Counted from the stretch's first letter, positions 666 to 43,789 are shown. The stretch: DNA of 64,000 nucleotides from Tepiditoga spiralis (GCF_014701195.1 NZ_AP018712.1:1754501-1818500); one strand, 5' to 3'. Notes: generated by a model from the letters alone, not told the origin. Numbers and translations: made by a program.

Positions 666-698
666 TCATATGATAACTAATTTATTGGAGGAATGTAT

Positions 699-1550
699 AT
701 GTATAAAATAATATCAAATAAAAAATTAGCAGAAAACATACATGAAATGATAATAGAAGCACCAAGAGTAGCTCATTCCGCAAAACCAGGACAATTTATT
801 ATACTAATTATTGATAAAAAAGGTGAAAGAATTCCACTAACCATTGCAGATTATGATAAAGAAAAAGGAACAGTAAATATTGTTGTTCAAGCAATAGGTT
901 ATTCAACAAAAAAGCTTGTTTCATTAAAAGAAAATGAATACATTAAAGATTTTGCAGGACCGCTTGGAAATGAATCAGAGTTTGTTCATGAAGATATAGA
1001 AATATTAAAAAACAAAAGAATTGTATTTGTTGGTGGAGGTGTTGGATCAGCCCCAATATATCCTCAAGTAAAATGGTTTTCAGAAAGAAATATAAAAACA
1101 GATGTAATTTTAGGATTTAAAAATAAAGATTTTATAATATTAAAAGAAGAATTTGAAAAATTAAATTGCAACTTACACATATGTACTGATGATGGTAGTT
1201 ATGGATTTAAGGGATTGGTAACTAATAAACTTCAAGATATGTTAGATAATGAAGAAATAGATGAAGTAATAACCATTGGTCCAATGATAATGATGAAGTT
1301 TGTATCTAAATTAACTAAAAAATACAATATAAAAACAATAGCCAGTTTGAACACCATAATGTTAGATGGAACTGGTATGTGCGGTGGTTGTAGAGTTAGT
1401 ATTGGTGGAAAAGTAAAGTTTACATGTGTTGATGGTCCAGAATTTGATGCTCATTTAATCAACTTTGATGAAGCAATGAATAGACAAACAACATTCTCTG
1501 ATATAGAAAAAAAACATTCATGTAGATTGGATGGTGCTATAAATGGATAA
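699..1550 (+). CDS. nfnA: NADH-dependent reduced ferredoxin:NADP+ oxidoreductase, small subunit (NfnA)
   Basis: This is a ferredoxin-NADP reductase-like flavoprotein of the sulfide/dihydroorotate dehydrogenase electron-transfer family (283 residues). FAD-binding residues lie near 44-60 (RIPLTIADYD), the NAD-binding loop is VGGGVGSAP near 110, and [2Fe-2S] ligands are in GTGMCGGC plus a later Cys (about 223-245). In NfnAB this subunit carries NADH-linked FAD and takes part in flavin-based bifurcation between NADH, ferredoxin and NADPH. ATG codons exist at 693 and 699. GGAGGA at 687-692 abuts the first and is 6 bases from the second, so 699 is preferred. The gene overlaps nfnB by 8 bases. Pairing with the GltD-like subunit supports Nfn over dihydroorotate dehydrogenase. 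Confidence 0.9.
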   Translation: MYKIISNKKLAENIHEMIIEAPRVAHSAKPGQFIILIIDKKGERIPLTIADYDKEKGTVNIVVQAIGYSTKKLVSLKENEYIKDFAGPLGNESEFVHEDIEILKNKRIVFVGGGVGSAPIYPQVKWFSERNIKTDVILGFKNKDFIILKEEFEKLNCNLHICTDDGSYGFKGLVTNKLQDMLDNEEIDEVITIGPMIMMKFVSKLTKKYNIKTIASLNTIMLDGTGMCGGCRVSIGGKVKFTCVDGPEFDAHLINFDEAMNRQTTFSDIEKKHSCRLDGAING

Positions 1551-2925
1551 AAGAATAAAGATGACTGAACAGGATCCTAATGTAAGAAAAAATAATTTTT
1601 TTGAAGTATCATTAGGCTATACTGAAGATGAAGCAGTAGAAGAAGCAAAAAGATGTTTAAACTGTAAAAATCCAAGATGTGTACCAAAATGTCCAGTTGC
1701 AATAGATATACCTGGATTTATTCAAGAAGTAAAAAAAAGAAACTTTAAAAAAGCTTATGAAATTTTAACTAAATACACTTCATTACCAGCTGTTTGTGGA
1801 AGAGTTTGTCCACAAGAAATACAGTGTGAAAGTACTTGTATTTTAGGAATAAAAGGTGAACCAGTGGCAATAGGAAATCTTGAAAGATTTGTTGCTGATT
1901 GGGCAATTAAAAATAATATAGAAATAAAAAACACTATAGAAAAAAATGGTCACAAAGTAGCTATTGTTGGAAGTGGACCAGCAGGTTTAGCTTGTGCTGG
2001 TGATTTATCAAAAATGGGATACGACGTTACAATATTTGAAGCACTTCAAGAAGCTGGTGGAGTTTTAACTTATGGAATACCTGAATTTAGACTTCCAAAA
2101 GATAAAATAGTAAAAACAGAAATAAATAAATTAAAAAAACTTGGTGTAAAGATAGAAACTGATGTAATAATAGGAAGAACTATTACTATAGATGAGTTAA
2201 TAGAAGAAGAAAAATTTGAAGCAGTATTTATAGGTTCAGGAGCAGGACTACCAAGATTTATGAATATTCCTGGTGAAAATACAAAAGGTGTATTTTCAGC
2301 AAATGAATTTTTAACAAGAACAAACTTAATGAAAGCTTATTTAGAAGATTATGAAACACCAATTAAGGTTGGAAAAAGAGTCGTTGTTGTAGGTGGCGGG
2401 AATGTTGCTATGGATGCCGCAAGGACAGCTTTAAGACTTGGAAGTGAGGTACACATAGTTTATAGACGTAGTGAAAAAGAGTTGCCTGCAAGAGAAGCAG
2501 AAGTACATCATGCAAAAGAAGAAGGTATACAATTTCATTTATTAACAAATCCTGTTGAAATATTAGCAGATGAAAATGACTGGGTAAAAGGTGTAAAATG
2601 TATAAAAATGGAGTTAGGAGAACCCGATGAATCAGGAAGACGTAGACCTATTGAAATAAAAGGATCAGAATATATAATAGATGCAGAAACAGTTATTATG
2701 GCAATAGGAACAACACCAAATCCTTTAATAACTTCTACAACAAAAGATATTGAAATTAATAAAAAACAATGTATTGTTGCAGATGAAGATGGAAAAACGA
2801 CAAAAGATAAAGTTTTTGCAGGTGGAGATATAGTAACAGGAGCAGCAACCGTAATTTTAGCAATGGGTTCTGGTAAAAAAGCTGCAAAAGCTATTGATAA
2901 AATGATAAGAAAAAACAACTCTTAG
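1543..2925 (+). CDS. nfnB: NADH-dependent reduced ferredoxin:NADP+ oxidoreductase, large subunit (NfnB, GltD-like)
   Basis: This 460-residue protein belongs to the glutamate synthase small-chain-like family. N-terminal cysteines CLNCKNPRC (about 38-46), CGRVCPQ and the Cys residues just after it hold two [4Fe-4S] clusters. An FAD Rossmann motif GSGPAGLAC follows near 142 and an NADPH-site motif VVGGGNVAMDAART near 282. With NfnA it forms the soluble electron-bifurcating transhydrogenase. No glutamate synthase large subunit is nearby, and the directly coupled NfnA-type partner argues for NfnB over GltD. The stop codon lies inside the terminator hairpin. Confidence 0.92.
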   Translation: MDKRIKMTEQDPNVRKNNFFEVSLGYTEDEAVEEAKRCLNCKNPRCVPKCPVAIDIPGFIQEVKKRNFKKAYEILTKYTSLPAVCGRVCPQEIQCESTCILGIKGEPVAIGNLERFVADWAIKNNIEIKNTIEKNGHKVAIVGSGPAGLACAGDLSKMGYDVTIFEALQEAGGVLTYGIPEFRLPKDKIVKTEINKLKKLGVKIETDVIIGRTITIDELIEEEKFEAVFIGSGAGLPRFMNIPGENTKGVFSANEFLTRTNLMKAYLEDYETPIKVGKRVVVVGGGNVAMDAARTALRLGSEVHIVYRRSEKELPAREAEVHHAKEEGIQFHLLTNPVEILADENDWVKGVKCIKMELGEPDESGRRRPIEIKGSEYIIDAETVIMAIGTTPNPLITSTTKDIEINKKQCIVADEDGKTTKDKVFAGGDIVTGAATVILAMGSGKKAAKAIDKMIRKNNS

Positions 2926-29495: not shown

Positions 29496-32400
29496 TTGAA
29501 AAATTATATTAGAAAAACAGTGATTGTTGTATTTTTGTTATTAGTTAGTATTAGTATTTTTTCGCAACAACCATATTCATCTTATTGGTTTCCAGAAACA
29601 TTATTAAACTGGTCTCCAGAAAATGATGCAGATTCTGATTTTAACAGAGGTATAATTCCATTAAGTGAAAGACAAGTTGGAGAAATTGTAAATAAAAATG
29701 CTAAAGGTGAAGCAAAATTAACAGTGTTGAGTATAATGCACCCAACAACTTCAAAGAATCCATCTGAGGGTTCAAATAAATTTAATATTTATACATTCAA
29801 TTATTGGCAATATGTTGACAAATTAGTTATGTGGGGAGGATCCGCATCGGAAGGAATAATTGTTGCACCAAGTGCTGATGTAATTAATGCTGCACATAAA
29901 AATGGTGTAAAAGTTTTAGGAACCATATTTTTTCCTCCAAAAAAATATGGTGGACAATTAAAGTGGTACAAAGATTTTATAAAAAAAGATGGAGTTCTTT
30001 TATTTGAAAAATTTCTAATGGCAGATAAATTAATTCAAGTAGCCGATTATTACGGATTTGATGGCTGGTTTATAAATCAAGAAACAGATGGAGTTTCGCA
30101 AGAAGACGCAAATACTATGAAAGAATTTATACAGTATTTTGAAAATCATAAAAAACCTAATATGGAAATAATGTGGTATGATGCTATGACTGAAAATGGA
30201 AAAATTGATTGGCAAAACGCCTTAAATGAAAAAAATGATGGATTTTTAAAAGTATCAGATAGTATATTTTTAAACTTCTGGTGGAAAGATATGGATTCAA
30301 CAAGAAGTTATGCAAAAAAAATAGGAGTAGATCCCTACACTATTTTTGCAGGAATTGATACACAAGCAAATGGATACAATACAACGGTTCATTGGGATGG
30401 AATATTTCCAAAAGAAGAAACGCCAAAAGTATCCCTTGGAATTTATTGTCCAAATTGGACCTATTCAAGTTCAAAAAATCAAGAAGAATTTTATAAAAAA
30501 GCAAGTCGATATTGGATAGGTGAAAATAACGATCCAAGCAATACAGAAAGTAAGTCTAATTGGAAAGGATTAGCAAATTATTTTCCTGCAAAAACACCAA
30601 TAGTTAAATTACCTTTTGTTACAAACTTTAATACAGGAAATGGACATTCATTTTCAGTTGATGGAAAATTACTGAGTACAAAAGATTGGAATAATAGAAG
30701 CTTACAAGATATTTTACCAACTTGGAGATGGATAATTAATGGAAACCCTTTAAAAATTGATTTTGATTGGACTGATGCTTATTATGGAGGTAGTTCATTA
30801 AAAATAAGTGGAAATTTAAAAGATGAAACAACAATAAAATTATATAAAACAAACTTAAAAGTAAATAAAAATACACAACTTACAATCATTAATAAAGCAA
30901 ATACACTTGGTGTTGCAGAAATAGGAATAAAGTTAAAAGATAAAACAGAACCTATTTATTTTGTATTAAACGAAAATAAAAGTTCTTGGAATAAGAAGGT
31001 TATTTCATTATCAAATTATGAATCAAAAATAATTACAGAAATATTGTTAAAATTTAAAACAAATAATGAAATAAAAAATTATGAATTTAATTTAGGTAGA
31101 ATAGCAATAACAAACAATGAAAAAAATTTAATAGAAACTCCAAATAATCTCAAAATCACAAAAATTGATTTTATTAATGGAATTTATGCAAATATCAGAT
31201 TAAAATGGAAAAATAATCAAAAAAATTTGTTGTATCAAATATATAGAGAAAAAATAAATGGAGAAAGAGAATATCTTGGCAGTACATATAATAATGTATT
31301 CTTTGTTTCAAACTTAAATAGATTATCAGCATCTGAAAACAAAACTAATTTAATAGTAATCCCAGTAAATAAACTTTATGAAAGAGGAAAAGAATCAATC
31401 GTATCATTTGACTGGGTAGCATATCCAAAACCAAAAGCAGATTTTTATGTTGATAAAACTTTTATAGCTCCAGGAGATACTATTCAATTTCAAAACAAAT
31501 CAAAAGTATATGATGAAGTAAAATGGTTCTTTTCAGGAGGAAAACCACTTATTACTAAAGAAGAAAATCCAAAAGTAACTTATGCTAAAGAAGGAGAATA
31601 CAGAGTAACTATAATTGCAAAAAATGCTGTTGGAAAAGACACTCTTGTAAAAGAAAAATATATTACAGTATCTAAAAATGCAAAAAAAGAAATGGAAGTT
31701 GTATCATTAACTGCAGAGGCAACAGCAAATGGAAATGTACCAACAGAAACGCCTAAAATGGCTCTTGATGGAAAGAAAAAAACAAAATGGTGTGCAATTG
31801 GAAAAGAACCTCATGAATTATATGTTACTCTTGAAAAAGAACAAAAAATAGGAAAGTTCATAGTTAAACATGCTGAATTTGGTGGTGAATCACCTGATTA
31901 TAATACAAAAGATTTTTATATATCAATAAGTAAGGATGGTAAAACATGGAAAAAAGTTGTAGATATAAAAGGAAATAAAGATGCAATTACTGAACATTTA
32001 ATAGAGCCAACAAGAACAAAATATATAAAATTAACAGTAACAAAAGCAACACAAGGAGGAGACACCGCTGCTAGAATTTATGAATTTCAAGTTTTGGCAG
32101 AAAAAAATGCATTTGAAAATTATGCATTAAATAAAAAAGCAATAGCAAGTGGAAACGTACCAGCAGAATATCCAGCGCTTTGTTTTGATGATAAAGTAAA
32201 AAATAACAGTAAATGGTGTGCTATCGGAAAAGAACCTCACTGGATTATGGTAGATCTTGGACAAATAGAAATAATAGATAAATTCATAATAAAACATGCT
32301 GAAGAAGGCGGAGAAAACCCCGAATGGAACACAAAAGATTTTTATATAGAAGTTAGTAATGATAAAAAAACATGGAAAAAAATTATTGACATAAAAGGAA

Positions 32401-33365
32401 ATAAAAAAGGCGTAACTGAATACTTAATAAAACCTATTAAAGCAAGATATGCAAAATTAACAGTAACAAAAGCAACACAAGGAGGAGACACTGCTGCTAG
32501 GATTTATGAATTTCAAGTTTTAGGATACAAAACACACAAATTAAATAAGGCAGCTGGTAAAGAAGCAATAGCAAGTGGTTGTGTATCAACTGAAACTCCA
32601 AATTTAGCAGTTGATAGAGATAATAAAACAAAATGGTGCGCAGTAGGAAAAGAACCTCACTGGATATTGATAGATCTTAAAGATATAATAGCAATAAATA
32701 AATTCATAATAAAACACGCACAAGCTGGTGGAGAAAGTGCAGAATATAATACAAAAGATTTTTATATAGAAGTTAGTAATGATAAAAAAACATGGAAAAA
32801 AGTTGTAGATATAAAAGGGAATAAAAAGGGTATAACAGAAAATATAATAAAACCAGTTGAAGCAAGATATGTAAAATTAACAGTAACAAAAGCAACACAA
32901 GGAGGAGATACTGCTACTAGAATTTATGAACTTGAAGTACAAGGAAAAGTAGTAAAAAAATATGTAGAAGAACCAAAAATATTATTTAAAGCAAGTGGAA
33001 GTAATCCTGGTGAAACACCTGATTTAATAATGGACAATGAAATAAGAACAAAATGGTGCGCAGTAGGAAAAGAACCTCACTGGATATTAATAGAGTTTAA
33101 AAAACCCAGAACAATAAAAGAATTTACAATAAAACATGCACAAGCTGGTGGAGAAGATGCAAAATACAATACAAAAGATTATTATATAGAAGTTAGTATC
33201 GACGGTAAAACATGGAAAAAAGTTGTAGATGTAAAAAATAATACAAAAGCAATTACAAAAGATGCAATAAAACCAGTTGAAGCGAAATACGTAAAACTAA
33301 CAGTAACAAAAGCAACACAAGGAGAAGATACTGCCGTTAGAATTTATGAACTTGAAATAAACTAA
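29496..33365 (+). CDS. Secreted GH85 endo-beta-N-acetylglucosaminidase with PKD and four discoidin-like modules
   Basis: A 1289-residue extracellular enzyme. A signal peptide (about 1-24) is followed by the GH85 domain (about 25-400) with SYWFPETLLNWSPEND, GVKVLGTIFFPP and the catalytic Asn194/Glu196 pair in FDGWFINQETDG. A beta domain follows, then a PKD-like domain (about 645-727) and four F5/8-type C modules (about 740-868, 880-1010, 1022-1151, 1164-1289), each with KWCA-GKEPH and TVTKATQG. GH85 cuts the GlcNAc-GlcNAc bond of high-mannose N-glycans. The start is TTG with GGGGGG seven bases upstream. It ends the importer operon. Confidence 0.92.
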   Translation: MKNYIRKTVIVVFLLLVSISIFSQQPYSSYWFPETLLNWSPENDADSDFNRGIIPLSERQVGEIVNKNAKGEAKLTVLSIMHPTTSKNPSEGSNKFNIYTFNYWQYVDKLVMWGGSASEGIIVAPSADVINAAHKNGVKVLGTIFFPPKKYGGQLKWYKDFIKKDGVLLFEKFLMADKLIQVADYYGFDGWFINQETDGVSQEDANTMKEFIQYFENHKKPNMEIMWYDAMTENGKIDWQNALNEKNDGFLKVSDSIFLNFWWKDMDSTRSYAKKIGVDPYTIFAGIDTQANGYNTTVHWDGIFPKEETPKVSLGIYCPNWTYSSSKNQEEFYKKASRYWIGENNDPSNTESKSNWKGLANYFPAKTPIVKLPFVTNFNTGNGHSFSVDGKLLSTKDWNNRSLQDILPTWRWIINGNPLKIDFDWTDAYYGGSSLKISGNLKDETTIKLYKTNLKVNKNTQLTIINKANTLGVAEIGIKLKDKTEPIYFVLNENKSSWNKKVISLSNYESKIITEILLKFKTNNEIKNYEFNLGRIAITNNEKNLIETPNNLKITKIDFINGIYANIRLKWKNNQKNLLYQIYREKINGEREYLGSTYNNVFFVSNLNRLSASENKTNLIVIPVNKLYERGKESIVSFDWVAYPKPKADFYVDKTFIAPGDTIQFQNKSKVYDEVKWFFSGGKPLITKEENPKVTYAKEGEYRVTIIAKNAVGKDTLVKEKYITVSKNAKKEMEVVSLTAEATANGNVPTETPKMALDGKKKTKWCAIGKEPHELYVTLEKEQKIGKFIVKHAEFGGESPDYNTKDFYISISKDGKTWKKVVDIKGNKDAITEHLIEPTRTKYIKLTVTKATQGGDTAARIYEFQVLAEKNAFENYALNKKAIASGNVPAEYPALCFDDKVKNNSKWCAIGKEPHWIMVDLGQIEIIDKFIIKHAEEGGENPEWNTKDFYIEVSNDKKTWKKIIDIKGNKKGVTEYLIKPIKARYAKLTVTKATQGGDTAARIYEFQVLGYKTHKLNKAAGKEAIASGCVSTETPNLAVDRDNKTKWCAVGKEPHWILIDLKDIIAINKFIIKHAQAGGESAEYNTKDFYIEVSNDKKTWKKVVDIKGNKKGITENIIKPVEARYVKLTVTKATQGGDTATRIYELEVQGKVVKKYVEEPKILFKASGSNPGETPDLIMDNEIRTKWCAVGKEPHWILIEFKKPRTIKEFTIKHAQAGGEDAKYNTKDYYIEVSIDGKTWKKVVDVKNNTKAITKDAIKPVEAKYVKLTVTKATQGEDTAVRIYELEIN
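31715..33362 (+). repeat. Four tandem coding repeats of about 420 bp
   Basis: The four discoidin-like modules (about 31715-32098, 32133-32525, 32560-32946 and 32986-33362) share long identical DNA stretches, for example TTAACAGTAACAAAAGCAAC in all four copies. Spacing between equivalent positions is about 418-427 bp. The nucleotide-level identity points to recent duplication or continuing gene conversion. Confidence 0.9.
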
Positions 33366-33368
33366 TTT

Positions 33369-33404
33369 AAAAAGTGAAGTTAGCTTAGCTAACTTCACTT
33401 TTTT
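33369..33404. terminator. Bidirectional terminator after the GH85 gene
   Basis: AAAAAGTGAAGTTAGC and its complement flank a 3-base loop with T runs on both sides. It separates the GH85 operon from the convergent Ehr operon. Confidence 0.88.
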
Positions 33405-33435: not shown

Positions 33436-33849
33436 TTAAATAAAATTTTTATTATTTTTTATAATTATTTTATTAAAAAAATAATATATAAAACTATTGA
33501 TTATACTTATAATTAAAATTACTAAAAATAAAATTAAATTAAAATAAATATTAATTTTTTCTCTAAATAATAGGTTAGGAAAAATGCTAAGTATAAACCA
33601 TGTTATTGAACCAAACAAACTCCAATACATTGTATTTTTTAAAAACAGATTTTTTTCCTTGTTTATGAGTTTAGGTATTAAAAAATTACTATATATTTCT
33701 AAAATTGCAGATTGTATGTATAGTATAAAAACTACAATAAGAAATCCTTTTGGTGGGGGTTTATCTGCTCCAAGCAACATTATTATTATCCATATAACAA
33801 AAAAAATTATTGAATTTATTTTAGAAATCTTTTTTACTTTATTTTTCAT
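33436..33849 (-). CDS. Hypothetical four-helix membrane protein
   Basis: A 137-residue protein with about four membrane helices (starts INSIIFFVIWIIIMLLG, FLIVVFILYIQSAI, MYWSLFGSITWFILSIF, LILFLVILIISII). No known family is recognised. It lies 19 bases after the ferredoxin-NuoB-like gene with its own GGGGG site, so it is probably read with the Ehr operon. Whether it is a subunit of the complex is unknown. Confidence 0.65.
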   Translation of the reverse strand: MKNKVKKISKINSIIFFVIWIIIMLLGADKPPPKGFLIVVFILYIQSAILEIYSNFLIPKLINKEKNLFLKNTMYWSLFGSITWFILSIFPNLLFREKINIYFNLILFLVILIISIINSFIYYFFNKIIIKNNKNFI

Positions 33850-33868: not shown

Positions 33869-34621
33869 TTATTTTATACCAAAAAAATCTAATATAGCAC
33901 TTAAAAGAGTCAATGGATGTGGTGGACATCCAGGAACAAATAAATCTACTTTTAAAATATTTTCTACTCCATTAATTTGTTCAATATTATTTCTGAATGG
34001 TCCTCCTGAAAGAGCACAACTTCCAGATGCTATTATTATTTTAGGATCAGGAATATCTTTATATGCTTTTTTTAATGCATATTCCATATTTTTTGTTACT
34101 GGACCAGTTATTAGCAAACCATCTGCATGTCTTGGAGAAGCAACAAATTGTATACCAAATCTTGACAAATCATAAAATGGTGTATTTAAAACATTAATAT
34201 CAGCTTCGCAAGCATTACAACCACCAGCTGAAACAACTCTCAATTGTAACGAACGTCCAAACATCTTTTTAAATGATTTATTTGTAGAAACTTTTAAATT
34301 TTCAACCTCTCCATTTAAAATTAATTTTTCTGATTTTGTTGATGCCATTTCAAAATTTCTTGTAAAAGTAACAAACTTTCCATTTGATACTTTTTCACAC
34401 AATCCACAAAAAGTACATTTTCTAAGATCAATTGTTTTATTTTCTATATTTATCGCATCTTGCGGACAAACATCAGCACATTTTTCTACAATTTCTATTG
34501 AACAATTTGTATTTATTTTTGGAAGTCCTCTATAATTTTTAGGAAGTTCTATTTCTTTTTTAGGATATTTTGATGTTCTATTTTTTTGTTCAATTCTATT
34601 TTTTATTATATCAAAAAACAT
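33869..34621 (-). CDS. Ehr/Hyf-like complex: fused ferredoxin and NuoB-like (HyfH-HyfI) subunit
   Basis: About 250 residues. The N-terminal half is ferredoxin-like: CADVCPQDA and KCTFCGLCEK give one full [4Fe-4S] set. A second set is incomplete (only one further Cys, in NTNCS). The C-terminal half is NuoB/HyfI-like with GGCNACEAD, SGSCALSGGP and PGCPPHP, four ligands for the proximal [4Fe-4S] cluster. In E. coli Hyf these are separate proteins. A longer frame runs upstream, but GAGAGG eight bases before ATG 34621 fixes this start and avoids overlap with the large subunit gene. Confidence 0.87.
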   Translation of the reverse strand: MFFDIIKNRIEQKNRTSKYPKKEIELPKNYRGLPKINTNCSIEIVEKCADVCPQDAINIENKTIDLRKCTFCGLCEKVSNGKFVTFTRNFEMASTKSEKLILNGEVENLKVSTNKSFKKMFGRSLQLRVVSAGGCNACEADINVLNTPFYDLSRFGIQFVASPRHADGLLITGPVTKNMEYALKKAYKDIPDPKIIIASGSCALSGGPFRNNIEQINGVENILKVDLFVPGCPPHPLTLLSAILDFFGIK

Positions 34622-34637
34622 TTTCATTACCTCTCTT

Positions 34638-36146
34638 TTATAGGTCAAAGCCAGAATAAGATAAATTAAAGCTTTTATTACATAATGGAAAATCATAAAT
34701 TCCTTCATTTCTTACTGCAATTTCAAGACCTTTCCAATTATTAAATGATGGATCTTTTATTTTATACCTAATAATTTTCCCATCTTTATTTGTTATTATA
34801 CAATGAGATAATTCTCCTCTCCAACCTTCCTGCAAGGTTAAAATCAAAGTTTCTTTTGGTAATTTAAAATTTTGTATTACAACTTTTGAATCTATACTTT
34901 TAATTTTTTTCAATAAATTTTGTACTATTTTTAATGATTCTTTTGTTTCTTTATATCTTATCATCGCTCTAGCCATAGCATCACCAGAAGTTTCAATAAT
35001 TTCTTCAAGCTTTATTTTCTTCCAACTTTCATTTGGAAAAAATCTTCTTACATCATAATTTATACCAGATGCTCTTCCAACTATACCAACCATATTTATT
35101 TTTTCTGCAATATTTTTTTCTACAATTCCAGTATCTTCTAATCTACTCAATACCCCAGCTTGAGAAAAAAACATATCTCCAACATTAATTATTTCCTTTT
35201 CTAATTGTTTTATTTTTTTTATAAAATTATTTTTTTGTTGTTCACTTATCATATTTTCAGTTCCTGGCCTAATTAATCCTCTTCCAAACCTATTTCCAGA
35301 TATTTCTAATAGTATATTCAAAAATTCTCCTCTAATTCTTCCATAATAAGAAGAAACAGTTAAAAAGGCTATATCTCCACTTAAAGCTCCCAAATCACCT
35401 ATATGATTTGCAATTCTTTCTAATTCTAAAGAGATTAGTCTTAATAATTTTTCATTTTCATTAATTTTTATATTCATCATTTCTTCAATAGCTTCTGAAT
35501 ATGAAATACTGTGAACAATCGTTGAATCTCCACTTATACTTTCTATAATAGTTGGTATTTTTTTTAATTTAACATTCTCTAATTGTTTTTCTATGCCTCT
35601 ATGTTGGTATCCATGTTGAATCTCTAAATTATATACTTTTTCTCCAACACAATTAAATCTAAAGTGTCCCGGTTCTATTACACCAGCATGGATTGGACCA
35701 ACAGCAACTTGATGAACTTCTTCACCTTCCATTTTATAAAAAGGATAATTTCCAGGTATTACTTTTTCATAATCATTATTAAATAAATCCTTTTTCCCAA
35801 CATAATTTTTATGGTATCTTAAAGATTTAAACCATGGGTGACCTATTGGTTTTATTGAAAATTGTTCTGCTATTTCTCTTTCATATTCATTAAATTGTTC
35901 ATATTTTTTTGTTAGTGATTCATATTCATTTGGTGCTTCACAAAGTCCTATCCAAAGCATTTCTGTTCTTAAAATAATGATTAACATTACTTTGTTATTC
36001 ATTTCAAAAGCAAAATATTGAATTACTTTTGCATTTTTTGCCATTAATATCTCTATTTCATTATAAAAATCATCAAAAGTACTTAATGGCACTTCAGATA
36101 AATTTATTTTTTTAGTATTTTCTATATTTATAAAATTTTTATTCAT
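34638..36146 (-). CDS. Ehr/Hyf-like complex: NuoCD/HyfG-like large subunit lacking NiFe ligands
   Basis: A 502-residue protein with an N-terminal 30-kDa/NuoC-like part (ending AEQFSIKPIGHPWFKSLRYH) and a NuoD/hydrogenase-large-subunit part (HFRFNCVGEKVYNLE onward). At the place of the hydrogenase motif RxCGxC it reads SISGDS. At the place of DPCxxC it reads DPSFNNW. All four Ni-binding cysteines are therefore absent. This is the pattern of energy-converting-hydrogenase-related (Ehr) complexes, which are not hydrogenases. The stop and start overlaps with neighbours (ATGA with the HyfF-like gene) support one operon. Confidence 0.9.
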   Translation of the reverse strand: MNKNFINIENTKKINLSEVPLSTFDDFYNEIEILMAKNAKVIQYFAFEMNNKVMLIIILRTEMLWIGLCEAPNEYESLTKKYEQFNEYEREIAEQFSIKPIGHPWFKSLRYHKNYVGKKDLFNNDYEKVIPGNYPFYKMEGEEVHQVAVGPIHAGVIEPGHFRFNCVGEKVYNLEIQHGYQHRGIEKQLENVKLKKIPTIIESISGDSTIVHSISYSEAIEEMMNIKINENEKLLRLISLELERIANHIGDLGALSGDIAFLTVSSYYGRIRGEFLNILLEISGNRFGRGLIRPGTENMISEQQKNNFIKKIKQLEKEIINVGDMFFSQAGVLSRLEDTGIVEKNIAEKINMVGIVGRASGINYDVRRFFPNESWKKIKLEEIIETSGDAMARAMIRYKETKESLKIVQNLLKKIKSIDSKVVIQNFKLPKETLILTLQEGWRGELSHCIITNKDGKIIRYKIKDPSFNNWKGLEIAVRNEGIYDFPLCNKSFNLSYSGFDL

Positions 36147-37561
36147 AATGCACCGCCAAAAACTTCAACTGCCTTATTAATCAGTTCTAACAATTGATTA
36201 AATTGAAAAAAAGTAATAATAAATGATGTACTAAGCAAAATATATTGAGGATAAACTCTCCAATTATTTTCTTTTATTTTAGGTTCATATTCAGTTTTAT
36301 CATAATACATCTTTAACATATACTTTATAAAACCTGCAACAATTAATATAAGACTAAAAACAAACAATGAAACAGCCACATATTTTCCTTTTTTTATTGA
36401 GCCCACAATTATCAAAAACTCACTAAAAAACAATCCAAAAGGTGGAAATCCCAGAATGGCAACCGTTCCTAAAAACATAGCAATGAATGTTTTAGGTAAA
36501 AATTTTACCATATTTCCAATTTTTTCTATGAGTTTTGTTTCATAGCTAATTAAAACATTTCCAGCAGATAAAAACAAAGAAGATTTTATTAATGCATGAT
36601 GTATTAAATGAAAAATAGCTCCATAAGCAGCTATTCCACCTATTCCTGCTCCAAAGGCTATAATCCCCATATTTTCAACACTTGAATATGCTAACATTCT
36701 TTTATAATCAACTTGTTTTAATATAAATACTGCAGCTATTAACATAGATAATAATCCAAGAATAATTAAAGACATTTCAGCAAAAGTTCCTGCCTCAGTT
36801 ACTTTTAAAACTTTTGTTATTTTAAAAATGCCTAAAAATGCTGTATTTAATAATGCACCTGAAAGAAGTGCAGAAGCTGGACTTGCTGCTTCACTGTGTG
36901 CATCTGGAAGCCAGGTGTGCATTGGTGCTAATCCCATCTTTGTTCCATATCCTATTAAAATAAAAACAAATCCCGCTTTTAACCATTCCATTTTTAAAAG
37001 AGATGGATTTTTATATAATTCAGTAAAGCTCAATGCAATTTTTAAATTTGCTTCATCTCTTGCAATTGCAATTAAAAATGTTCCAAGTAAAGCTAATGCT
37101 ATACCAACAGAACATATTATTACATACTTCCATGCTGCTTCTATTGAAGTTTTTGACTTATGAATAAATATAAGCGGTGCACTTGTTATTGTTGTTGCTT
37201 CCACAGATATCCAAAATAATATTAAATTATCTGATATTGCAACTGAACTCATCGAAGCTAAGAAGAGTATCATAAATGCATTAAATATTTTTTCGTTTTC
37301 ATATTTTACTTCTTTTAAATAAAAAACAGTGTAAAAAGATATTATCAAAAATAAAAACGAAGTAATTAATAGTACTATCATTCCATCAGAAGATAAAAAA
37401 ACATATTTATTAAACATTGGTTTTAGGAAACCACCCCAACTTAACATTGTCAATGTAAAATGTATTATTCCAGTAATAGGTAATAAAATTTTTGATTCTT
37501 TTACAAAAAAGATCAATATTCCAATTATAAAAGGTACAATCACTATTAATTCTATCATCAT
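36143..37561 (-). CDS. Ehr/Hyf-like complex: HyfF-type (NuoN/MrpD-like) antiporter subunit
   Basis: A 472-residue membrane protein with about 14 helices. Proton-channel signatures are present: FWISVEATTITSAPLIF (conserved Glu in helix 5), the Lys/His-containing GYGTKMGLAPMHTWLPDAHSEA loop and VDYKRMLAYSSVENMG. It would pump H+ or Na+ in response to electron transfer. The gene starts one base after the HyfE-like stop and overlaps the large subunit gene by 4 bases. Confidence 0.92.
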   Translation of the reverse strand: MMIELIVIVPFIIGILIFFVKESKILLPITGIIHFTLTMLSWGGFLKPMFNKYVFLSSDGMIVLLITSFLFLIISFYTVFYLKEVKYENEKIFNAFMILFLASMSSVAISDNLILFWISVEATTITSAPLIFIHKSKTSIEAAWKYVIICSVGIALALLGTFLIAIARDEANLKIALSFTELYKNPSLLKMEWLKAGFVFILIGYGTKMGLAPMHTWLPDAHSEAASPASALLSGALLNTAFLGIFKITKVLKVTEAGTFAEMSLIILGLLSMLIAAVFILKQVDYKRMLAYSSVENMGIIAFGAGIGGIAAYGAIFHLIHHALIKSSLFLSAGNVLISYETKLIEKIGNMVKFLPKTFIAMFLGTVAILGFPPFGLFFSEFLIIVGSIKKGKYVAVSLFVFSLILIVAGFIKYMLKMYYDKTEYEPKIKENNWRVYPQYILLSTSFIITFFQFNQLLELINKAVEVFGGAL

Positions 37562-38194
37562 TTACTCCTTTAAATTTTTTAATTTTATGGTATTTATAGT
37601 TTCAAATTTTATATTTATCTGTTGTAAAATAACTACCATAATCATAACTCCAACTAAAATATCCAATAAAATACCAAATTCAACTATATAACTACTTTTA
37701 TTAATTAACATACTTCCAATTAAATATATTCCATTTTCAAGCATTAAGTATCCTATAACCTGTGTAATAGTCTTTCTTCTTGCAATAAGCAAGAACATAC
37801 CTGATAAAATAGTAGCTATTGCAGTAACTCCCAAAAGATTATTTGAAATTGGAAATGATATTTTATTTTGAATAACAAATGAAAAAACAATGATCAATAC
37901 TGATATAAAAATAGAAGCATGATAACCAACAATAGGTTCTAATTCTTTTTTCATTATAACTTTATCCAACACTTTTATTAACATTGTTGGAATTATAATT
38001 CCTTTTACTAAAAAGGGGATAAAAGCAAAAACTATAGTTGTAATAGTAATTTTTTCTTCTATAAATATTGGTACTAAAGATACTAAACTTCCTTGTAAAA
38101 ATATTGTATAAATTAAAATTCTCAATCTACTTGAATTCAAACTAAAAATCAAAGAAAATAATATTATCATTAATAAAAGATTTAATATACTCAT
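37562..38194 (-). CDS. Ehr/Hyf-like complex: HyfE-type subunit
   Basis: A 210-residue protein with about seven membrane helices. It resembles HyfE, whose C-terminal half is NuoK-like (KTITQVIGYLMLENGIYL, with a conserved membrane Glu, then VEFGILLDILVGVMIMVVI). It overlaps the HyfC-like gene by 4 bases and abuts the HyfF-like gene. It probably forms part of the ion-translocating arm. Confidence 0.87.
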   Translation of the reverse strand: MSILNLLLMIILFSLIFSLNSSRLRILIYTIFLQGSLVSLVPIFIEEKITITTIVFAFIPFLVKGIIIPTMLIKVLDKVIMKKELEPIVGYHASIFISVLIIVFSFVIQNKISFPISNNLLGVTAIATILSGMFLLIARRKTITQVIGYLMLENGIYLIGSMLINKSSYIVEFGILLDILVGVMIMVVILQQINIKFETINTIKLKNLKE

Positions 38195-39105
38195 TTTAAA
38201 AACCCCTTAACTAATATATTGGCTAAAATTGATAAAGAAAAAGATGTTAAAATAAATTTTGGAACCTTTTCAAATTTAAATCTTGGTATTAAAGATTCAA
38301 TTACGCCAATGAATACATAAATTAAAAATATTATTCCATAAAAAATTATTGTATCTAAATAAAAGTTATTAAATGAAAAGAACATTAATAATTTTGCAAT
38401 GAATGCAGCATAAAACATCAATTTTAAATTAGCACCAAAATGTATAAAACCAAGATCTGGTCCACTATGATCAAGAACCATAACTTCATGAATCATTGTG
38501 AGCTCTAAATGAGTTTTTGGATCATCAACTGGAACTCTTGAATTTTCTGTTAATAAAATCATAAATAAAGAAATTATTATTAAAATCAAAGAAAGTCCAT
38601 AATCACTCCAAATGTTTTTATTAAAATTGAGTATATTCATAAATGAACTGTATCCATTCATATTAACTAAAGAAATTATAGACATAAATAAAGTTAATTC
38701 AGCTAAAGCAGAATAATATCCTTCTCTGCTTCCTCCCATTCCTTCAAATGAAGAACCAGTATCCATTGCAGATATTATAGTAAAAAATCTACTCAATCCC
38801 ATCAAATAAATTATAAAGACAATATCTCCATTAAATGAAAGTATTGAATTAAATCCTGCAATTGGAAAGAACATCAAAGCTATTAATGCAACAGTAAAGG
38901 ATATAATTGGTCCAATTTTAAATATAAAAGTTGTTGTACTACTATATACAGAACCTTTATTAAAAAGAAGTTTTTTTAATGTATAGTAATTTATAAAAAT
39001 TGAAGGTCCTTTTTTTCCTGAAAAAAATGCTTTAGTTTTTAAAATTATTCCTGAAAATAAAGGAGATAAAAATATTGTTAAAATAAATAAAATTATTGAC
39101 TTCAT
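38191..39105 (-). CDS. Ehr/Hyf-like complex: NuoH/HyfC-type subunit
   Basis: A 304-residue membrane protein with about eight helices. NuoH/HyfC features include GKKGPSIFINYYTLKKL near the N-terminus, SREGYYSALAELTLF, and the acidic loop NSRVPVDDPKTHLELTMIHE. This subunit links the soluble arm to the pump subunits. The start overlaps the HyfB-like stop as ATGA and the end overlaps the HyfE-like start likewise. Confidence 0.92.
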   Translation of the reverse strand: MKSIILFILTIFLSPLFSGIILKTKAFFSGKKGPSIFINYYTLKKLLFNKGSVYSSTTTFIFKIGPIISFTVALIALMFFPIAGFNSILSFNGDIVFIIYLMGLSRFFTIISAMDTGSSFEGMGGSREGYYSALAELTLFMSIISLVNMNGYSSFMNILNFNKNIWSDYGLSLILIIISLFMILLTENSRVPVDDPKTHLELTMIHEVMVLDHSGPDLGFIHFGANLKLMFYAAFIAKLLMFFSFNNFYLDTIIFYGIIFLIYVFIGVIESLIPRFKFEKVPKFILTSFSLSILANILVKGFLK

Positions 39106-41063
39106 TTAATAACCCCCATTATCAAAAACAATGTTAATGCTATAAAAATATATGCTATGTATCCATGAACATCACCATGTTGTATCCATCTTAATTTATT
39201 AGATATAAATAAAATTGGATTGACAATATACTTTTTTATTAAATATTCTGAAACATCTATTGTCTTTGATTCATACATAGTTCCTTTAGGAAAGATTCCT
39301 TTTATTTCATCTATACTTTCTTCTACTTTTATAAAAGGTTTATAAAAATTTAGTATTTCATGAGCATAAGAACTTCCAGTATATTGCATTTTAGATGTAG
39401 GATAACCATATCCACAATCCCAAGTAGTGCTATTTTTAATTTTTTTATTTTTATAAAAATACTTTCTTATTAAATAAATAATCAATAAAGAAATGATAAA
39501 AAGTGTACTTGAAAAAGTTATATTAGAAGCTATTTTTAAATCAATATTAACTTTTTGAGTTAATTTAAAACTATTAACTATATTAAAAACATTATTTATA
39601 AAAACTGAAGGAAAAATTCCTATAAAAATACAAAAAATTGTAAGTATTATCATTGGAATTAAAATAAAATAATTACTTTCTTTTGCATTTTTTGCTTTAT
39701 TCGTTTTTGGAGTTCCTAAAAATACCACTCCAATTACTTTTGTAAAACACATTATTGCAAGTCCTCCTATCATTACAAGAGATAATATCACAATCAATGA
39801 AAAAACATATGGAAAGTTTGATAAATTCATTCCATTAAATACTCCAAAATATATTAAAAATTCACTTACAAATCCATTAAATGGTGGTAATCCTGCTATT
39901 GCCAGTGAGCCAATTAAAAATGTAATTGAAGTTACTTTCATTTTTTTTAAAAAACCACCCATTTCTTCAATTGATTCAATTCCTGTTTGATGTAAAATAG
40001 ATCCAGCACCTAAAAATAATAAAGATTTAAATATTGAATGATTTAATATATGTAATAAACCCCCACTAAAACCAAGTAATGTAATAATAGGATTTTTTAT
40101 TGTAACACCCAACATTCCAACACCAATACCCATTGTAATAATTCCAATATTTTCTACACTATGATATGCTAACAATTTTTTTAAATTATGTTGTCCTAAT
40201 GCATAAACAACCCCCAAAATACCAGAAATTACTCCAATTGATATTACAATATAAGGTATCAAAGTTATGCTTGTATTTAATAACAAATACATTTTTAGTA
40301 TTCCATATATACCTATTTTAATCATTACTCCAGACATAATTGCAGATACATGACTTGGAGCTATAGGATGTGCATGAGGTAACCAAATATGTATAGGTAT
40401 AAGTCCTGCTTTAGAACCAAATCCGATTAAAGAAAGTATAAATGCTATTAATTTTATATTTTCAGGTAAACTTGAAATTCCATCGAATGAAAATGAATTT
40501 GTATAAGCATAAATTAAACCAAATGAAGCAAATATGAACATTCCTCCAATGTGCGTAAATATAAAATACATATGACCAGCTCTTCTTACTTTTTCTTTAT
40601 TATATTCAAAAATAACAAGAAAAAAAGAAGACAAAGACATTATTTCCCAATTGAACGCAAAAGTAATCAAATTATTTGACAAAACGACTGTCATCATTGA
40701 AATAACTAACAATGAATAAAAAAAATAGTTAATTGCAATATTTTTAGATTTTTTTTCATTATTTAAATATGAAAAACTATATATTATTGATAAAAAACCT
40801 ATTAAACTTATTATAGAAATAAAAAATAAAGATAATTCATTTATTTGAAATTCAATAGGAAAATAAGGTAATTTTAAATATGAAAAATTTATATTTCCAT
40901 TGAATTTTACAAGCAAAAAAATTGATTCAATTAAACTTATTATAGTGCCAAAAGATATCAAACCTATTGAAAAAAATTTCATTACATTAAATTTTTTAGT
41001 TAAAAATAATGGTAAAGTACCACCTATTAATATTAAAAAAATTGACATAAAAAAAATGTCCAT
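39102..41063 (-). CDS. Ehr/Hyf-like complex: HyfB-type (NuoL/M-like) antiporter subunit
   Basis: A 653-residue membrane protein with about 16 helices. It shows the antiporter core NWEIMSLSSFFLVIFEYNKEK, GFGSKAGLIPIHIWLPHAHPIAPS and LKKLLAYHSVENIGI, and the HyfB C-terminal TTWDCGYGYPTSKMQYTGSS. It is the first large gene of the operon, behind a 22-codon ORF. A HyfD-like subunit, present in E. coli Hyf, is missing here, so the complex has two rather than three antiporter-like subunits. Confidence 0.93.
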   Translation of the reverse strand: MDIFFMSIFLILIGGTLPLFLTKKFNVMKFFSIGLISFGTIISLIESIFLLVKFNGNINFSYLKLPYFPIEFQINELSLFFISIISLIGFLSIIYSFSYLNNEKKSKNIAINYFFYSLLVISMMTVVLSNNLITFAFNWEIMSLSSFFLVIFEYNKEKVRRAGHMYFIFTHIGGMFIFASFGLIYAYTNSFSFDGISSLPENIKLIAFILSLIGFGSKAGLIPIHIWLPHAHPIAPSHVSAIMSGVMIKIGIYGILKMYLLLNTSITLIPYIVISIGVISGILGVVYALGQHNLKKLLAYHSVENIGIITMGIGVGMLGVTIKNPIITLLGFSGGLLHILNHSIFKSLLFLGAGSILHQTGIESIEEMGGFLKKMKVTSITFLIGSLAIAGLPPFNGFVSEFLIYFGVFNGMNLSNFPYVFSLIVILSLVMIGGLAIMCFTKVIGVVFLGTPKTNKAKNAKESNYFILIPMIILTIFCIFIGIFPSVFINNVFNIVNSFKLTQKVNIDLKIASNITFSSTLFIISLLIIYLIRKYFYKNKKIKNSTTWDCGYGYPTSKMQYTGSSYAHEILNFYKPFIKVEESIDEIKGIFPKGTMYESKTIDVSEYLIKKYIVNPILFISNKLRWIQHGDVHGYIAYIFIALTLFLIMGVIK

Positions 41064-41338: not shown

Positions 41339-43696
41339 TTATATATTTTTAGGAATATTTATAATGAATTTAACTCCTTTACCAATTTCACTTTCACACT
41401 TTATACTTCCTTTCATTTTTTGAGTCACTAAGTTATATATAAGATTTAATCCTAATCCAGAACCACCCTTTCCCATTTTAGTAGTAAAAAATGGTTCAAA
41501 TATTTTATCAATTATTTCTTTTTCAATTCCACTTCCATTATCAATATAAATTAATTCTATATTATTTTCTATTTCTTCAAAGCTTATACTTATTTTTCCA
41601 TTTTTTTTGTTCTCAAAACCATGAATTATACTGTTCATTATTAAATTATTTATTATTTGATACCAATCTCCTGGATATCCTTTTAATTCTATATTTTTAC
41701 CCTTAATTAAGACTTCTATATTTTTTTGTTTTAACTTTTTATTCAAAATTAAAATAGTATTATTTATATAATCTTTTAAATTAAAGTTTGTTTTTATATC
41801 ATTAGAAGTTTCAACAGATACTTTTTTAAATTTTTGTATTAATTCGGATGCACGTCTTAAGTTAAACATTGTAATATCTGATATTTCTAAAGTATCTTTT
41901 ATATAATTTTCAAATGTCGATTTTTTTAATTCATTATTTAAAAAATCTTTTTCTAAAGATTTTGTTTTATCTTTGAGATGAGATACTGTAGTTACACTTA
42001 TTCCAAGAGGTGTATTTATTTCGTGAGCTACACCAGCAACTATTTTTCCAAGTGATGCCATTTTTTCTGTTTCAACAAGTTGCTTTTGGGTTTTTTGATA
42101 TTTTTCAAGAAGATTATTTAATGATTTTGTTCTTTCTAAAACTTTAAATTCTAATTCATCGTTTAATTTTTTTAATTCAGCATTTTGTGTTTCAATTTTT
42201 TTAAAACTTTCTTTTATCTCATCTTTCATTTTATTAAAAGAACTTCCAAGCTTTCCAAATTCATCTTTTGACTTTATATCTAATTTAAAGTCATAATTAC
42301 CTTTACTTATACTTTGAGTTGCATCCACTAAATATTCTAAATTTTTAGTTGATTTTGATAAAACATAATATAGAATTATTCCAATAATAAAAACTAAAAT
42401 TACAATAATCGTTGTTTGATATTTTAAAATATTTTGAGTAGAAGAATTTATTGTGTTTTGTGAATTAACTAAAGTTTGGTATAATGACTCTTCAGGTAAG
42501 AAAAATCCAAGAGTCCAACTTTCTTTGTAAAAACCTTTGTTTTTATTCCATGTATTGAATGAATTCAAATTTTTCATAACAAGAATATACTTTTTATTAT
42601 TTATTACTATATTTTTAAATACAGTTTTTGCTGAAGAACTTGTAAGGCTTAAATTCTTTATACTCTCATATTTACTGTCTTTAAAATATCTTTTCATTGG
42701 ATTATATCCTACACCTTTTTTTCCATATATTGTAGATTCTTTTTCACCTTTTAAACCCAATGTTTTTATTCCCATATCATTTATGGCAAAAACATTTCCA
42801 TTAGACTGTGAAATAAAACCAAACCCATTTTTTACTACTTTAAACTCTTTAATATAATCAATTATTTGTTGTATGGTAACATCAACACTTAAAGATCCTT
42901 CAAATTTTTTTCTTGCTTTATCCCAAATTGGATAGTTTAAGGTCATTATTATTTTTCCTGTTCCTCCATCTTGTGTTGGTCCTTTAATAATTGAAAAATC
43001 TTTTAAAGGTAGATTTGAATTATTTTTTCTTTTTTCTTCAAACTGTTCAACAAGTCCTGGATTAAATGCTTCCCAATTTGGCACGTCTGTATGAGCAGGA
43101 TAAACTTTATCCATTGCATTTCCAACATCATTCCATGGATATATTCTCATAAAAGATCCATTTTTTCTTCCTGAAAAATATATCCAAAGAAGATTTGAAC
43201 TATTATTATAAATAGCTGGTAATACTAAATTTAAAATAGAAGTATCATGTATCTGTTGTAAAACATCATCTCTTATACTGTTATCTTTATTTAAACAGTA
43301 TCTTTGAACAAGGACAACTGTATTTTGAGTTGAATCATTTTGATACCATCTTCCATTGAACTTTAACTTATCTTTAGAGTAATCATTCTTAATCATAGTT
43401 TTTGTTATTTCTTTAAAATCTTCATTATTGTCAAAGTATTCTTGTAAAATACTTCCTGCAATTGCTTGATTTTCAAAGATATTTTTTATTTTGCTTTCAA
43501 TTAAGTTTGAAGCGCTATTTAAGTAATTAGTATAATATTCTTTATAAATATTTTGCATACCAATCTTTAATTCTTTTTCTGAATTATCAGCTAATTTTTT
43601 TATTCCATAAAATGATATAAAAAGCTCTATTATTAATGCTAAAAAAAGTAAAGTTATTGATATAAATATTATTTTATTTTTAAAACTCTTAGTCAT
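41339..43696 (-). CDS. Sensor histidine kinase with Cache-like domain and HAMP
   Basis: About 785 residues. A membrane helix at about 6-28 is followed by a 400-residue extracytoplasmic Cache-like sensor, a second helix near 430-450, HAMP (about 452-500), a coiled coil, HisKA with GVAHEINTPLG (phospho-acceptor His near 556) and HATPase (NLIMNSIIHGF, DNGSGIEKE, FFTTKMGKGGSGLGL). Its N-box reads NLIMNSIIH. The longest frame starts five codons earlier, but GGAGGTGA lies inside that extension and fixes ATG 43696. No response regulator is adjacent, so the output partner is elsewhere. Confidence 0.92.
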   Translation of the reverse strand: MTKSFKNKIIFISITLLFLALIIELFISFYGIKKLADNSEKELKIGMQNIYKEYYTNYLNSASNLIESKIKNIFENQAIAGSILQEYFDNNEDFKEITKTMIKNDYSKDKLKFNGRWYQNDSTQNTVVLVQRYCLNKDNSIRDDVLQQIHDTSILNLVLPAIYNNSSNLLWIYFSGRKNGSFMRIYPWNDVGNAMDKVYPAHTDVPNWEAFNPGLVEQFEEKRKNNSNLPLKDFSIIKGPTQDGGTGKIIMTLNYPIWDKARKKFEGSLSVDVTIQQIIDYIKEFKVVKNGFGFISQSNGNVFAINDMGIKTLGLKGEKESTIYGKKGVGYNPMKRYFKDSKYESIKNLSLTSSSAKTVFKNIVINNKKYILVMKNLNSFNTWNKNKGFYKESWTLGFFLPEESLYQTLVNSQNTINSSTQNILKYQTTIIVILVFIIGIILYYVLSKSTKNLEYLVDATQSISKGNYDFKLDIKSKDEFGKLGSSFNKMKDEIKESFKKIETQNAELKKLNDELEFKVLERTKSLNNLLEKYQKTQKQLVETEKMASLGKIVAGVAHEINTPLGISVTTVSHLKDKTKSLEKDFLNNELKKSTFENYIKDTLEISDITMFNLRRASELIQKFKKVSVETSNDIKTNFNLKDYINNTILILNKKLKQKNIEVLIKGKNIELKGYPGDWYQIINNLIMNSIIHGFENKKNGKISISFEEIENNIELIYIDNGSGIEKEIIDKIFEPFFTTKMGKGGSGLGLNLIYNLVTQKMKGSIKCESEIGKGVKFIINIPKNI

Positions 43697-43789
43697 ACCA
43701 TCACCTCCCATATTTATATTATATCACTTATTTTATGTAACATTCTTATGGTAAAATATATTTTAATACTAATTTAATGAGGTGAAACT

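Follow-up and report, generated by a model that had tools for sequence, protein, structure and literature searches.

An Ehr complex of Tepiditoga spiralis predicted to lack nickel and one of three iron-sulfur clusters

Introduction

What can a membrane complex with the build of a [NiFe] hydrogenase do once the ligands of its nickel are gone? The question is raised by six Hyf-like genes in the 64,000-nucleotide stretch of the Tepiditoga spiralis genome analysed here (NZ_AP018712.1:1754501-1818500; the window). Complexes of this kind, named Ehr, have been described in Melainabacteria, Margulisbacteria, Nitrospira and Geobacter as a group-4-hydrogenase-like module with antiporter subunits and without the Ni/Fe-binding residues, and no function has been assigned to them (PMC6349859, PMC10284858, PMC12342949, PMC7894505). 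Coupling of a cytoplasmic redox reaction to ion translocation is presumed. A preliminary description of the locus had taken the complex for an Ehr and had suggested ferredoxin as its electron donor, pointing to Nfn in the same window.

Results

Organisation of the operon

ORF calls together with Pfam and NCBIfam profiles (HyfB, NuoH (HyfC), HyfE, HyfF, NuoD/NiFe large subunit and NuoB) bear out the six genes of the preliminary description. They are contiguous minus-strand reading frames running from 41063 to 33869 in the order B-C-E-F-G-HI, overlapping or abutting, and the operon is intact (Table 1). The mechanical ORF of HI (33869-34708) has its listed start at 34708 and runs into gene G; the start at 34621 gives the length found in the family and is preceded by a well-spaced Shine-Dalgarno sequence. 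The channel residues of the two antiporter subunits are conserved, namely E140, K218, K295, H342, K346 and E401 in EhrB and E121, K208, K287, K326 and E381 in EhrF. The 137-aa ORF that follows HI has no Pfam match, and no homologue clustering with it was found near the operons of relatives; it is probably the last gene of the transcript, which the stem-loop behind it probably closes, judging by the sequence pattern. The operon is flanked by genes for a dCache-HAMP histidine kinase on the upstream side and for a probable secreted protein on the other; read by eye, the latter looks GH85-like in its N-terminal part and carries several discoidin-like repeats, similar to one another, towards its C-terminus.

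Table 1. Coordinates of the features discussed in the text
Feature	Sequence	Position	Strand	Evidence or remark
ehrB, HyfB/NuoL-like antiporter subunit, 653 aa	window	39102..41063	-	Pfam Proton_antipo_M 1.5e-54; NCBIfam hydrogenase 4 subunit B 6.6e-173
ehrC, HyfC/NuoH-like membrane anchor, 304 aa	window	38191..39105	-	Pfam NADHdh 1.7e-30
ehrE, HyfE-like membrane subunit, 210 aa	window	37562..38194	-	NCBIfam hydrogenase 4 membrane subunit 7.2e-24
ehrF, HyfF/NuoN-like antiporter subunit, 472 aa	window	36143..37561	-	NCBIfam hydrogenase 4 subunit F 6.4e-96
ehrG, large subunit without Ni ligands, 502 aa	window	34638..36146	-	NuoC-like N-terminal part fused to NuoD/HycE-like part
HI, small subunit, 250 aa	window	33869..34621	-	degenerate HyfH-type ferredoxin domain fused to NuoB/HyfI; corrected start
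137-aa ORF	window	33436..33849	-	hydrophobic by eye; 20 bp downstream of HI
Terminator-like stem-loop, 16 pairs	window	33369..33403	-	pattern match only
dCache-HAMP histidine kinase	window	41339..43711	-	275 bp upstream of operon
Probable secreted protein, 1289 aa	window	29496..33365		
nfnAB	window	693..2925		ordinary-looking by eye
Mrp-Mbx operon of the same genome	L003	569..11218		
Cluster-free six-subunit Ehr-like operon	L111	5753..12337		
Cluster-free six-subunit Ehr-like operon	L112	5683..12241		
Cluster-free six-subunit Ehr-like operon	L113	6050..12624		
Cluster-free six-subunit Ehr-like operon	L114	4378..10966		
Cluster-free six-subunit Ehr-like operon	L115	5366..10258		partial
DUF6062 protein, about 210 aa	L111	5117..5749		
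DUF6062 protein, about 210 aa	L112	5005..5655		
DUF6062 protein, about 210 aa	L113	12630..13265		

The former nickel site of the large subunit

Group 4 [NiFe] hydrogenases hold their metal with the motifs L1 (RxCGxC) and L2 (DPCxxC), and EhrG has neither (S203-S208, S492-G499). At L1, SISGDS (203-208) stands opposite RVCGIC of E. coli HycE, as the preliminary description had proposed. Its second motif, DPSFNNW (465-471), was misplaced: in the phmmer alignment this segment pairs with non-ligand residues, RAATYANW in HycE and APSFVNL in Nqo4, while the SLDPCYSC segment of HycE, with its DPCYSC, stands opposite SFNLSYSG (492-499). The claim that all four Ni ligands are gone is upheld nonetheless. 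EhrG also stops just behind the second site and has no C-terminal tail for protease cleavage. The maturation protein HypD was not found in the genome by a search that was positive in four control genomes, nor in 11 other Thermotogota genomes carrying such a complex.

The Ni-less pattern is common to the relatives; a cysteine at position 205, the first of the four, is kept in 46 of the 83 large subunits. Residues invariant throughout this set include H153, E158, H161, G206, D207, PSF.NW, S496, Y497 and D501. The glutamate E158, found in 83/83 sequences, aligns with the hydrogenase-type proton-relay glutamate E21 of MbhL, the key proton-reduction residue of MBH, which is missing from MBS (PMC7684303). 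An aspartate has been gained at D207 (likewise 83/83), together with a conserved S-Y-x-G-x-D-L tail. The quinone-binding His and Tyr of NuoD are not found in EhrG, where GPIHAGVIEPGHF replaces GPQHPSTHG. Judged from these residues, the pocket would resemble a hydrogenase pocket from which the metal has been removed and to which polar groups have been added, rather than a quinone or polysulfide chamber. Since the quinone prenyltransferase UbiA was not found in the genome, a quinone is unlikely as acceptor. An AlphaFold model of EhrG (pLDDT 86) has HycE of formate hydrogenlyase (FHL; 7z0s_E) as its best PDB match, followed by complex I.

Phylogenetic placement

The analysis covered 80 relatives with 39-49% identity, most of them from metagenome-assembled genomes, belonging to Gastranaerophilales/Melainabacteria, Omnitrophota, Auribacterota, Lentisphaerota, Ignavibacteriota, Bacteroidota and Spirochaetota; in loci whose contigs are long enough to show it, the genes stand in the order B-C-E-F-G-HI with few exceptions. 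In the maximum-likelihood tree, EhrG falls inside a Ni-less clade (bootstrap/SH-aLRT 100/99), at the base of which it branches alone. HycE/HyfG is the sister of this clade (80/90), with Mbx and Nuo further off, and a constrained grouping of EhrG with the true hydrogenases is rejected (p-AU 0.00025). That EhrG lies apart from the true hydrogenases of group 4, from complex I and from Mbx/MBS is read from a small reference set that leaves out Geobacter Ehr, Nitrospira Ehr and group 4g hydrogenases. One operon combines Hyf/Ech-like large and small subunits with NuoH-like and antiporter-like membrane subunits, and this gene content, the phylogeny and the lack of both the Ni ligands and HypD support the assignment to Ehr made in the preliminary description. 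The six-gene complex is thus an Ehr complex, a kind already described. Melainabacteria and Spirochaetes sequences are among its closest relatives; unlike the published Ehr complexes, the Tepiditoga copy sits in a Thermotogota-type genome on a lone basal branch, lacks FDH or NuoEF neighbours and has lost one iron-sulfur cluster, N6a.

The iron-sulfur wire of the small subunit

This last loss had gone unmentioned in the preliminary description. HI is a fusion of a ferredoxin domain with NuoB, and one of its two ferredoxin-type clusters is lost: with N6a and N6b assigned from the known ligand pattern of NuoI/HycF, N6a has one of its four cysteines left, N6b has 4/4, and N2 keeps four, with the CxxC of GGCNACE in hydrogenase-like spacing. 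Overall, the complex has thus lost its Ni site and one of three iron-sulfur clusters. The AlphaFold model of HI (pLDDT 88) matches MbhJ best among PDB entries (6cfw_J) and HycG next.

By cysteine counts, both ferredoxin-type clusters are kept in 39 of the 80 small subunits, and 31, including the Tepiditoga one, keep the inner cluster N6b alone. The remaining ten have neither, all of them from Omnitrophota or Auribacterota. N2 is intact in essentially the whole set, and N6a never occurs without N6b (0/80). On the gene tree, the presence of N6a changes at least nine times. This pattern indicates that the wire erodes strictly from its distal end across the Ni-less clade, which is new here. In the literature searched, nothing relevant was found on redox-free relatives of complex I or on the EIIA and SulP links reported below; the cluster loss may have been noticed earlier, in the Ehr analysis of Marreiros (2013).

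Comparison with known systems

Formate hydrogenlyase and hydrogenase-4 of E. coli are the nearest systems, as sister group (HycE, HyfG), as best structural match and by the shared subunits B, C, E, F, G, H and I. The Tepiditoga complex differs from them in the missing Ni ligands and processing extension, in the fusion of H with I, in having no HyfA or HyfD in the operon and in the lack of HypD in the genome. MBS/Mbx of Thermococcales and Thermotogota is likewise a Ni-less group 4 relative, but it occupies a separate branch and has an Mrp-type membrane arm. In MBS the proximal cluster has three cysteines, from a loop three residues shorter, and E21 is absent (PMC7684303); HI has four cysteines there. 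Complex I (Nuo/Nqo) shares the fold, the subunit logic and the absence of Ni, whereas the Tepiditoga complex has no quinone-site HPSTHG, carries a CxxC in place of the tandem CC at N2 and lacks an NADH module.

An apparently cluster-free complex in another Thermotogota family

Nine genomes of another Thermotogota family match a small subunit in which the ferredoxin domain is absent (about 152-166 aa), encoded in operons of the order C-E-F-G-HI-B. In the five loci that were read fully, the N2 cysteine motifs are absent as well, with DVGNSN.LNFE in place of the GGCN.CE.D/E found elsewhere and with no PGCPP. Of three aligned members, two retain a cysteine close to each of the two later N2 positions; with the first CxxC pair missing in 5/5 loci, however, no normal N2 can be formed. 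The HMMER match to HycG/NuoB persists all the same (E 1e-13). The large subunit of this family lacks the second L1 cysteine and both L2 cysteines. The channel residues of B and F are kept (e.g., E140, K218, K295 and K346; E121, K208, K287 and K326).

Decay as the cause of the cluster loss was rejected, the operon genes being under purifying selection (for those pairs that allowed a computation, omega is 0.07-0.15). We also rejected the idea that a Cys-bearing NuoB is borrowed from elsewhere: each genome has at most one other strong NuoB match which, where known, lies on the contig of an Mbx-type large subunit. The group stands on a long branch of its own in the tree (3.2 changes per site). Trees that exclude it from the clade of Ehr and HycE/HyfG are rejected (p-AU 0.0012), a result to be read with the caution that long branches call for. 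Taken together, these sequences appear to encode a complex-I-like machine in which no redox cofactor can be recognised. In several of the operons, gene B is followed by a gene for a DUF6062 protein (Table 1), possibly an extra subunit or assembly factor of the complex.

Gene neighbourhoods

Ferredoxin, the donor suggested in the preliminary description, remains plausible, N6b and N2 having kept all their cysteines, but Nfn does not count as evidence for it. We rejected Nfn as a partner: nfnAB lies over 31 kb from the operon, and of nine NfnA-cluster genes near the relatives' operons, just one has an NfnB-like neighbour; a further one is followed by a PyrD-like gene, and the other seven lack any NfnB-like neighbour. 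The genome also carries Rnf, Mrp-Mbx and two FeFe hydrogenases, which show a ferredoxin-based metabolism. Its other NuoD homologue belongs to the Mrp-Mbx operon, which ends in a 608-aa NfnB-like Fe-S flavoprotein.

Two recurrent neighbours stand out near the relatives' operons, and no others. In about 14 loci from several phyla (L028, L036, L039, L044, L049, L058, L059, L079-L082, L085, L095 and others), the gene immediately upstream of B encodes a fusion of HTH_17 with PTS EIIA (PtsN-like), and in three cluster-poor relatives (L028, L049, L095) a SulP anion transporter gene precedes this fusion gene. Neither gene adjoins the Tepiditoga operon. In E. coli, EIIA-Ntr regulates potassium transport. 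The EIIA neighbour fits an ion-transport role and proves nothing.

Discussion

For the Tepiditoga copy we favour an ion pump fed by ferredoxin through a shortened wire, since it retains N6b, N2 and the pocket; we give this reading about even chances. The sequence shows the subunits, the loss of the Ni site and of N6a, the retention of N6b and N2, and the conserved pocket and channel residues, and neither HypD nor UbiA was found in the genome. Reduced ferredoxin would most likely hand electrons to N6b, the single remaining ferredoxin-type cluster of the small subunit, from which they would pass to N2 at the former NiFe pocket and leave there to an acceptor that is neither H+ (as H2) nor quinone. 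A change of conformation or charge would then push H+ or Na+ across by way of the NuoH-like subunit C and of both antiporter subunits, B and F. What we infer here is the donor (ferredoxin), a net flow of electrons and the kind of ion that is pumped. Against a pump stands the operon itself: it encodes neither an acceptor module nor a subunit for flavin or NAD(P).

The most serious rival is an ion transporter, exchanging H+ for Na+ or K+ via B and F and gated via C, whose cytoplasmic arm is no longer catalytic; N2 and N6b would serve as redox sensor or structural cofactor, and some lineages would be free of cofactors. The strict order of loss from N6a over N6b to N2, the selected cluster-free complex with its channel residues and the EIIA and SulP neighbours all speak for it. 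Yet the clade of the Tepiditoga copy retains the N2 ligands with essentially no exception, which argues for a redox role there, and the long branch of the cluster-free group may be a derived, repurposed line; we regard the transporter as doubtful, though clearly ahead of the remaining readings. Thermotogota commonly reduce sulfur, and a polysulfide or another sulfane-sulfur compound might be reduced at N2, as in MBS. That Ni-less relative reduces polysulfide at its proximal cluster (PMC7684303), but the Tepiditoga complex, unlike MBS, keeps the four-Cys CxxC spacing and the E21 equivalent, and the genome already has an Mrp-Mbx complex nearer to MBS, all of which makes the sulfur reading improbable. 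Still less probable is a formate-linked chain (FDH-Ehr) of the kind suggested for Saganbacteria and Riflemargulisbacteria (PMC6349859), in which the complex would work with a separate module, either a formate dehydrogenase or a NuoEF-like one: Ehr subunits do rise with formate in Geobacter (PMC7894505), but genes of these types neither adjoin the operon nor recur beside the 80 relatives. Persistence of H2 evolution or use via an unusual metal site can be practically dismissed, for although the overall fold is nearest to HycE, the four cysteines are missing, HypD was not found and grouping with true hydrogenases is rejected.

Two further points weigh against the pump. Ten relatives have lost both ferredoxin-type clusters and N6a is lost here, so ferredoxin input is not a constant of the family; and because the cluster-free homologue is under purifying selection, electron flow may be dispensable for the conserved function. 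On this sequence evidence, a branch of the complex I superfamily may have undergone stepwise redox uncoupling, with the Tepiditoga copy as an intermediate (N6b and N2), Omnitrophota with N2 alone and one Thermotogota family at completion, a six-subunit complex under selection that has no redox cofactor by sequence. We hold this tentatively, at somewhat less than even chances. If it is true, the conserved job would be ion transport gated by the cytoplasmic arm and not electron transfer. The central open question of complex I is how ions tens of angstroms from N2 are set in motion by a change there, and a natural series with three, two, one and no clusters in otherwise equivalent complexes is a test of which parts need electrons. 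One cannot take for granted that Ehr complexes, widespread among gut Gastranaerophilales, Omnitrophota and others, are "ferredoxin-driven", and the driving force of a widespread relative of complex I is now a testable question.

A separate observation was made at L036, where a second B-C-E-F set lies behind the first cassette (after 11143), without G and HI and followed by polyphosphate-type genes; by eye, it reads as a membrane-only copy.
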